Part shown: positions 34,945 through 64,000 of the stretch, one piece after another
Numbering within the stretch: position 1 is the stretch's first letter
Layout of the letters: every line of letters begins with the position of its first letter
Notes under the pieces: model-generated
The model's input: the letters and a program-made list of their open reading frames with translations, nothing else
Database searches by the model: none
Told to the model about the DNA's origin: nothing
Program-made: the position numbers and the translations under genes
NCBI GenBank assembly: GCA_937873035.1
Contig: CALMVA010000064.1
Location: 62,001-126,000, forward strand
Length of the DNA: 64,000 bases
Reading direction: 5' to 3'
Source of the DNA: an uncultured Sphingomonadaceae bacterium
GTDB taxonomy: Bacteria > Pseudomonadota > Alphaproteobacteria > Sphingomonadales > Sphingomonadaceae

Positions 34945-35894
34945 AACTCGTCAGCGATTGAGCGCGCCTTGCGCAGCTTTGCAGGCGCGCAGATATCCCA
35001 GCTTTTTTGTAGCCAGGCGGCAATATGATCCCAGTCGTTGCGGCCGAGATCCAAGCGGATGCCAATCCAGCCTGAGGGGGCATAATAAGGCGGGAGAAAG
35101 TAAAGCTCTTCATCTTGCTCGACGAGCATCGCCTGTTCTTCCGCGCCGCTGGTCTTGACCAGCAGGGCGATCTTTCCGTCGCCATGATGATGCTGTGAAA
35201 AGGTGGCGAAGAACTTGCCACCCGCAATCGCAAAGCCCGGTGATCCGTGCGATGTCCGCTCCTCACTCGACGGCAGAGCCAATGCGCGGGCGCGGACTTG
35301 CTCCAGCAGCCATGCCGGGTCTGCTTCTCGCGTCACATAAGCGGCAAGCGCGCGAGAATAGGTCTGGTGTTCGGCGATGAGCACGCGCGCGGCAAGACTC
35401 TCTGCATTGTCGTCTGCCAGAATGGCCACTTCGGTCTGGGCCAGAACTGGCCCGTCATCGAGTTCTGCCGTCACGATATGGACGCTGCACCCGCCATGGC
35501 TGTCGCCAGCATCAATGGCGCGTTCATGCGTGTCGAGCCCCTTATATTTGGGAAGAAGCGAGGGGTGAATGTTGATGATCCGCCCCGCCCATCCGTCAAC
35601 AAAACTGGGAGAGAGAAGCCGCATATAGCCGGCGAGCGCCACATAATCGGCCTTTGCCTTGCGCAACTCTGCATCGATGATCGCGTCAAATTCGGCGCGC
35701 TTCATGCCCTTGTGGCTATGTGCGAAGGTCTGGATGCCCTCTGCCGCGGCAAAGCCAAGCCCTGCGGCGTCCGGGTCATTGGCGGCAACCAGAACGATCT
35801 CATAGGGGCAGCCTGGTTGCTTTGCGGCATAGACGAGTGCTGCCATGTTCGAGCCGCGGCCCGAAATAAGGACCGCAACCCGCGCCTTAGCCAT
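34941..35894 (-). CDS. purN: Phosphoribosylglycinamide formyltransferase fused to an MmcQ/YjbR domain
   Basis: Third purine step: formyl transfer from 10-formyl-THF to GAR. The first ~195 residues of 317 are Pur[17 protein letters not shown] at the start, [21 protein letters not shown] with the catalytic Asn and His, and the catalytic Asp in [10 protein letters not shown]. Residues ~205-317 form an MmcQ/YjbR-like domain (DUF419): [52 protein letters not shown]. There is no stop or start between the two, so they are one polypeptide. It overlaps purM by 8 bases. Confidence 0.92.
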
Positions 35895-62602: not shown

Positions 62603-63169
62603 TCAGCCGAAGATTTCCCAGAACATCCAGCCGCCGACGACTACAAACAGCGATGCCGCGATGATGCGCACCGTCTTGAGCGGAACGACACGGATGAGCG
62701 CACTGCCGAGGAACACGGCGGGCACATTGGCGAGCATCATCCCCAGCGTCGTGCCGGTCGTCACGGGGATCACATCGTGGAAGCGTGCGCCGAGCGCGAT
62801 GGTGGCGATCTGCGTCTTGTCGCCCATCTCCACGAAGAAGAAGGCAATCAGCGTCGTCAGAAAGGCGCCGCGTGTCCCTGTGCTCTTCAACTCGTCATCC
62901 TCGAACTTGTCGGGAATGAGCGTCCAAAGCCCCATGATGACGAACGAGGCGGCAACGGCAACGCGGAACCAATAGCCATCCAGCAGGTTTGCGACTTCCG
63001 AGCCGACAAGGGCCGCAAAGAAATGGTTGAGGATCGTCGCACCGAGGATGCCGAGGATGATCGGCACGGGCTTTTTGAAGCGCGTCGCAAGGATGATCGC
63101 GAGCAACTGTGTCTTATCGCCAATTTCGGCAAGCGCGACGACCGCGGTAGAGGTGAGCAAGGCTTCCAT
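62603..63169 (-). CDS. TMEM165/GDT1 family Mn exporter (UPF0016)
   Basis: Inner-membrane protein of 188 residues with six helices arranged as two repeats. Each repeat has the family E-x-G-D-K-[ST] motif: ALAEIGDKTQLLAIILATRF and FFVEMGDKTQIATIALGARF. The family exports manganese (or exchanges it for protons). A yybP-ykoY Mn riboswitch directly upstream supports the manganese role. ATG 63169 is chosen: GGGAGA lies 6 bases before it and it gives a clean first repeat; the in-frame upstream extension runs through the riboswitch. Confidence 0.93.
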   Translation of the reverse strand: MEALLTSTAVVALAEIGDKTQLLAIILATRFKKPVPIILGILGATILNHFFAALVGSEVANLLDGYWFRVAVAASFVIMGLWTLIPDKFEDDELKSTGTRGAFLTTLIAFFFVEMGDKTQIATIALGARFHDVIPVTTGTTLGMMLANVPAVFLGSALIRVVPLKTVRIIAASLFVVVGGWMFWEIFG

Positions 63170-63174
63170 GAAAT

Positions 63175-63229
63175 TCTCCCGGCCAGGCGCAGTTTGGACA
63201 CAATAACGCTTCACCTCTTGCCTGGCCGG
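63175..63229 (-). promoter_or_regulatory. Expression-platform hairpin over the ribosome binding site
   Basis: On the minus strand, CCGGCCAGGC (63229-63220) pairs perfectly with GCCTGGCCGG (63188-63179). The last two bases of the right arm belong to the GGGAGA ribosome binding site (63180-63175). It lies between the Mn aptamer and the start codon, so it is placed to hide the binding site when manganese is low. Confidence 0.65.
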
Positions 63230-63241
63230 AAAGAGGGTCGG

Positions 63242-63354
63242 CGTCATTGGTCTTGCCTGAACGGTGGGTCCGTTCCCGCCTGCCATGGCCTCTCGACCAA
63301 GTATGTTGACAGCGCGGCCCGCATGGGATGCGGTGGGCTACTCCCCAGATGACG
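63242..63354 (-). promoter_or_regulatory. yybP-ykoY manganese riboswitch
   Basis: Read on the minus strand: P1 closes by CGTCAT (63354-63349) with ATGACG (63247-63242). The aptamer hallmarks are GGGGAGTAGC, then after a GC-rich hairpin GTCAACATACT and CGAGAGGCC. These are the conserved L1 and L3 segments that bind two metal ions. The expression platform and the GDT1-family gene follow, the usual partner of this class. It is inferred to switch gene expression on at high Mn. Confidence 0.9.
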
Positions 63355-63391
63355 ATGCCGCGCTAGGCGAAAGCCGCGCGGCCTGCAAGTC

Positions 63392-64000
63392 TCAGTCGAC
63401 CCAATCGAGGCCAAGATCACGATAGACGCCGCGATCCTCATCCCATTTAGGATCAACCTTCACGTGCAGGAACAGACGAACATGGCATCCGAGGGACTTG
63501 GCGATCTCGGCGCGTGCCTTTGATCCAATTTCCTTCAGCCGCGTGCCGCCCTTGCCGAGGATGATGGCGCGCTGGGACGGGCGTTCGACCTTGATCTGCT
63601 GGTGAATATCGACTGAGCCGTCGGCATTTTCGGTATATTTCTCAGTCTCGACGACCGAGGCGTAAGGCAGTTCGGCATGAAGCTGAAGGTAAAGCTGTTC
63701 GCGCGTGATTTCCGCCGCGGTCAGCCGGTCGGATGCATCACTCACCTGATCTTCGGGGAAGTGCCATGGGCCTTCGGGGAGTTTTGCGGCAACCAGACCC
63801 TTGAGTGCTTCCAGTCCGTCGCCCGTTTCTGCGCTCACCATCAGCACATCGGTAAAATCAAGCATTTCGGTCAGCTTGGCGACATGAACCAGCAGCTTGT
63901 CCTTCGCTGCAATATCAACCTTGTTGAGCACAAGCATCTTGGGTTCTGGGCGGTTCTTCAAGCCCTCGACGATCCGCTCGACCTTTTTGCCGAGGCCCGT
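63392..64000 (-). CDS. era: GTPase Era, N-terminus beyond window
   Basis: Ribosome-assembly GTPase that binds 16S rRNA near its 3' end. The visible C-terminal 202 residues include the G4 motif LVLNKVD, the linker with TREQLYLQLHAELPY and the KH domain RAIILGKGGTRLKEIGSKAR ending in LGLDWVD. The frame is open to the right edge, so the G1-G3 part and start are missing. It ends 38 bases before the Mn aptamer of the next gene on the same strand. Confidence 0.95.
   Translation of the reverse strand, partial: TGLGKKVERIVEGLKNRPEPKMLVLNKVDIAAKDKLLVHVAKLTEMLDFTDVLMVSAETGDGLEALKGLVAAKLPEGPWHFPEDQVSDASDRLTAAEITREQLYLQLHAELPYASVVETEKYTENADGSVDIHQQIKVERPSQRAIILGKGGTRLKEIGSKARAEIAKSLGCHVRLFLHVKVDPKWDEDRGVYRDLGLDWVD

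Follow-up and report, generated by a model that had tools for sequence, protein, structure and literature searches.

The closest described systems are the Mn2+-sensing yybP-ykoY riboswitches, in which Mn2+ docks loops L1 and L3 and holds the helix P1.1; in the absence of Mn, this helix gives up its 3' segment to a hairpin further downstream (PMC11087558; PMC6754395). In the transcriptional riboswitch of L. lactis, P1.1 is the switch helix and its 3' strand is common to a competing downstream helix, which is an intrinsic terminator (PMC11087558). The E. coli mntP leader turns expression on with Mn at the level of translation (PMC11647493), and the UPF0016 gene mneA is induced by Mn (PMC13274385); the precedents for Mn-on control comprise E. 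coli mntP and alx, V. parahaemolyticus mneA and terC, and L. lactis yoaB. A yybP-ykoY riboswitch was reported in 328 of 333 UPF0016 strains (PMC7380456). A UPF0016 gene behind such a riboswitch is therefore textbook material, and the case that we describe, which pairs the same riboswitch and transporter families as the mneA genes of Vibrio and others, is ordinary in kind. What we add is the rescue of a sub-threshold member, a conserved promoter, and two mutually exclusive, covarying helices that change how the hairpin beside the ribosome-binding site is to be read; the resulting expression platform is a modest and testable addition.

The window, by which we mean the whole stretch of 64,000 nucleotides analysed, comes from an uncultured Sphingomonadaceae bacterium. 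Its minus strand, read from 63388 to 62603, carries first a predicted promoter, then a riboswitch aptamer and a platform of about 70 bases, and finally a GDT1 gene (Table 1). We put at roughly 0.6 the probability that a Mn2+-sensing yybP-ykoY riboswitch, transcribed from a promoter of its own, here controls a GDT1 Mn exporter through an exchange between P1 and an alternative helix, here called helix A. The observations behind this reading are aptamer homology, three conserved helices, their mutual exclusion and a conserved promoter; Mn binding, Mn-on expression, action at translation and masking of the binding site without Mn are the parts that we infer.

Table 1. Features of the leader and its gene, in transcript order (window coordinates).
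Feature	Positions	Strand	Sequence	Remarks
Predicted promoter	63360..63388	minus	TTGCAG (-35, 63388-63383), 17 bases, TAGCGC (-10, 63365-63360)	conserved pattern
P1 5' strand (switch helix)	63345..63354	minus	CGTCATCTGG	C63348 bulged; pairs with 63242-63250
L1 loop	63337..63346	minus	GGGGAGTAGC	GGGGAGTAG invariant in leader alignment
P2 hairpin	63319..63333	minus	CCGCA/TGCGG	R1 alignment and RNAalifold
P3 arm	63277..63316	minus	L3 ACATACT at 63306-63300	RNAalifold and R1
P4 hairpin	63259..63275	minus	GAACGG/CCGTTC	covarying pairs in RNAalifold
P1 3' strand, common to P1 and helix A	63242..63250	minus	CCAATGACG	pair counts in leader alignment
Helix A 5' strand (anti-P1 helix)	63241..63252	minus	GACCAATGACGC	12 pairs with 63197-63209, U63200 bulged
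Helix A upper part	63213..63238	minus	ACcCTCTT/AAGAGGT	63238-63231 with 63219-63213; seven pairs, all form in the window
Arm1, hairpin 5' arm	63220..63229	minus	CCGGCCAGGC	pairs with arm2
Helix A 3' strand	63197..63209	minus	GCGTTATTGTGTC	alignment pair counts; kept in same-genus relative
Arm2, hairpin 3' arm	63179..63188	minus	GCCTGGCCGG	overlaps first two bases of GGGAGA
Shine-Dalgarno	63175..63180	minus	GGGAGA	5 bases before ATG 63169
GDT1/UPF0016 family transporter gene	62603..63169	minus		188 aa; PF01169 147 bits

By homology, the minus strand from 63354 to 63242 is a yybP-ykoY aptamer ahead of the GDT1 gene, a clear but ordinary one, and its RNA very probably senses manganese. The motifs from which the original prediction had recognised the family are all where it placed them, with GTCAACATACT at 63310-63300, CGAGAGGCC directly after it, and the closing pairs of P1 formed by CGTCAT (63354-63349) and ATGACG (63247-63242). 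L1 (GGGGAGUAG) and L3 with its Mn-contacting adenosine are both present in a four-way junction of P1 to P4. The L3 loop, ACAUACU, is the same as ACA48U49ACU52 of X. oryzae (PMC6754395), and A63304 within it corresponds to the Mn-contacting adenosine A48.

The original prediction had staked the assignment on an Rfam covariance-model hit above threshold. At the curated gathering score of RF00080 (45 bits) no match was listed for the window element; by E-value search the same model scored it at 39.8 bits (E 1.4e-9 in a 351-base stretch, 2.8e-9 genome-wide), the sole good match in its genome. We therefore examined how the model behaves in the lineage. In the same bacterial family, 56 of 149 genomes have an RF00080 match, and 33 of them exceed the gathering score, so that 23 of the 56 have only sub-cut-off matches. 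A covariance model, R1, built from an alignment of 33 sphingomonad aptamers with the window left out, scored the element at 118.1 bits (E 6.1e-31). Because so many genomes fall below the cut-off in the same way, and because the lineage model gives E 6e-31, we regard the missed gathering score as a problem of threshold, and the family assignment stands; the RF00080 cut-off looks too strict for sphingomonads. R1 also recovers, at 70.7 bits, E. coli mntP, for which a response to Mn is proven, and it matches in 71 of 296 genomes of the order. It gave one further, weak match in the window, at 35132-35274 on the minus strand (13.9 bits, E 0.056), which is probably due to chance. At riboswitch distance before the gene, GGGGAGTA, exact or with one letter changed, occurs in 64 of 80 named GDT1 relatives.

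The gene behind the leader is a GDT1 gene of a sphingomonad, as had been proposed from the letters alone: its product matches PF01169 far above the cut-off of 27 bits and has two E-x-G-D-(K/R)-(T/S) motifs (EhGDKT), EIGDKT and EMGDKT. Mn2+ export by this protein is predicted from knowledge of the family (MneA, PMC13274385); a look-up of structures and family names returned no solved homologue and no NCBIfam name for it. The genome also contains a second, weak GDT1-like frame (G000:C2:8717-8917, 32.9 bits), on a contig with no RF00080 match. Upstream of the leader, a gene ending at 63392 encodes a KH_2 domain and looks like that of the GTPase Era. Among the fetched loci, such a gene adjoins the element only in the window, and we rejected a conserved linkage; this absence elsewhere fits a self-contained unit. 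In other sphingomonads the same type of riboswitch precedes a sodium/calcium-exchanger gene (PF01699) or an MntP gene (PF02659), at loci L007 and L027 and probably at L019 and L024, and so appears to serve several exporter families.

A strict scan for -35/-10 consensus found no promoter, and the promoter call rests on conservation. In 63 of 83 leaders, the pattern TTG-N16..18-TA precedes GGGGAGTA by 41-44 nt; at a spacing of 17, the other counted offsets account for at most two leaders each, and no other offset beyond 45 occurs in more than one. Given this conserved position, the transcript would be expected to start near 63354, at the 5' strand of P1. The promoter spacer and the -10 element are overlapped by an inverted repeat rich in GC (GCCGCGC...GCGCGGC, 63354-63384, minus strand), which by eye shows no conservation in relatives.

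Downstream of the aptamer, the perfect 10-bp inverted repeat reported to overlap the start of the binding site proved to be exact: all ten positions pair, arm2 takes two bases of GGGAGA, and the repeat outscored 1000 of 1000 dinucleotide shuffles. Across an alignment of 41 sphingomonad leaders, 96.2% of cells keep arm1 and arm2 paired, and four of the pairs show double changes; for P1 the figures are 90.8% of cells and three pairs. Downstream of the aptamer, no element covaries more strongly than helix A, which had been missed. It is paired in 91.7% of cells, with 61 double-changed cells over seven pairs, and its covariation of 0.417 compares with at most 0.137 for slid versions of the same helix. 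In per-sequence shuffles, P was at or below 0.05 in 45 of 53 sphingomonad leaders and 24 of 31 others, and 0.03 for the window alone; a leader from the same genus keeps CAATGACGCG/CGCGTTATTG of helix A. An extension of helix A into the loop GGCAAGAC was set aside, as it is a tendency over 84 leaders that are not phylogenetically independent (mean z -0.96) and is absent in the window.

Helix A excludes P1 because both use the P1 3' strand (63250-63242), and this shared strand covaries with both of its partners: alignment columns 10, 140 and 194 read TAT in 35 leaders, CGC in four and CGT in two. Its apical loop (63230-63220) contains the whole of arm1, so that helix A also excludes arm1:arm2, except as a pseudoknot. 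P1 and arm1:arm2, on the other hand, occur together in the minimum-energy fold of the window. Read in this way, the leader can take up two predicted states, both conserved and each excluding the other, one of P1 with the hairpin and one of helix A, and by analogy the first would be expected to go with Mn and the second with its absence. Folded in isolation, the platform adopts helix A in most relatives; that of the window does not. Folding of the window leader from its predicted start favoured P1 with the arms over helix A by 2.4 kcal/mol, an order that reverses with the inclusion of more upstream sequence; at that difference, helix A would have to be assisted by the order of synthesis.

We propose that the RNA begins with the P1 5' strand, and that docking of L1 and L3 by Mn2+ would hold P1 together. 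With P1 formed, helix A would be blocked and arm1 left free, so that arm1:arm2 could form just upstream of the Shine-Dalgarno. Without Mn2+, the downstream strand GCGUUAUUG would capture the P1 3' strand to form helix A, with arm1 locked in its apical loop; arm2, the Shine-Dalgarno and the P1 5' strand would then be free to pair with one another or with the early coding region, lowering translation. Mn would thus turn expression on, a direction that rests on precedent. In a more specific version, four strands would be exchanged: the P1 5' strand and L1, which make up the 5' end of the RNA, would be freed by helix A and would mask the Shine-Dalgarno until Mn swaps the strands back, the hairpin being the 'on' structure. 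We offer this version tentatively, as a possibility short of even odds. Complementarity of the P1 5' strand and L1 to the arm2 tail and Shine-Dalgarno is strong over 45 sphingomonads, at -10.1 kcal/mol as compared with -6.1 kcal/mol when the 5' strand is shuffled, and RNAalifold pairs L1 with arm2 in 41 of 41 leaders. The complementarity is weaker in the window (-7.7 kcal/mol), where the helix A state is instead predicted to have the binding site paired with the first part of the coding region, and coevolution of the two regions is weak in sphingomonads (P 0.08) and absent outside them.

Nearest-neighbour folding gave no opening of the binding site upon formation of P1: the site is paired in both states in the window, and most relatives show it slightly more open with helix A than with P1. 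It is for this reason that the masking step is one we infer. As a calibrator, E. coli mntP came out in the wrong direction when the P1 5' strand was held unpaired and in the right direction when helix A was forced, as most other leaders did not. We dropped thermodynamic prediction as a guide to the sign of control, since it is sensitive to constraints, and set-ups and calibrators disagree. The reading in which Mn turns the gene off, with P1 and arm1:arm2 hiding the binding site and helix A freeing it, agrees with a naive view of the base pairs and with most of these calculations. We nevertheless consider it very improbable: all tested family members are Mn-on, including the UPF0016 gene mneA and the translational mntP, one of the two set-ups of this calculation got mntP wrong, and an exporter shut off by Mn would make little sense.

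The original prediction saw a readable translational platform in the hairpin itself, an 'off' clamp on the Shine-Dalgarno opened by Mn. The hairpin is real, conserved and covarying, and it takes two bases of GGGAGA; folding with P1 forced predicts pairing of the binding site inside the platform. By itself, however, it makes no switch. A clamp should be excluded by the ligand-stabilised helix, and arm1:arm2 is excluded by helix A and not by P1; because it is compatible with P1, and a helix stabilised by Mn would favour it, the simple reading in which Mn opens the hairpin does not follow. Belonging with the Mn-bound state, the hairpin is unlikely to be simply an 'off' clamp, and additional anti-Shine-Dalgarno pairing flanking the arms, tried as a candidate, was not above shuffles (mean z -0.21). 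We judge the simple clamp to be decidedly unlikely. Control mainly at transcription, with helix A acting without Mn as a pause or a Rho-dependent stop, we would call unlikely. Helix A does lie where L. lactis has its terminator stem (PMC11087558), and Rho halts transcription in the E. coli mntP leader, where Mn partly relieves it (PMC11647493). Against this, helix A is not followed by a U-tract in the window (UGUCCAAACUG), and a scan found neither an intrinsic terminator nor a terminator-like site on this strand. As for a chance resemblance with no working aptamer, the RF00080 score below the gathering threshold is outweighed by 118 bits from a lineage model made without the window, and by a promoter, spacing and helices that are conserved over 41-83 leaders; we consider it negligible.

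The exchange between P1 and helix A, which remains our preferred reading, can be set beside both described mechanisms. As in L. lactis, the 3' strand of the switch helix is shared with a competing downstream helix, although in L. lactis that helix is an intrinsic terminator, whereas in the window none was seen and the arms lie at the Shine-Dalgarno. Outside the sphingomonads, our platform comparison covered a few beta- and gammaproteobacterial relatives. In E. coli mntP, which has a homologous aptamer, a helix between the P1 3' strand and downstream sequence can also be drawn by eye, with short arms by the Shine-Dalgarno; its anti-P1 helix was within shuffles in an ungapped test (P 0.30), and the mntP leader differs in having a longer platform and a transporter of the MntP family.

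The window thus adds a clear yet sub-threshold case to a common family of metal-sensing RNAs. About two fifths of the sphingomonad genomes with a model match fall short of the Rfam cut-off, and annotation pipelines based on that cut-off will miss these riboswitches. Two GDT1 genes, at loci L116 (genome G127, of the same genus) and L117 (genome G003), have no recognisable Mn riboswitch ahead of them and provide a natural contrast for loss of control. The leader described here is compact, and each strand of the proposed switch is open to compensatory mutation.
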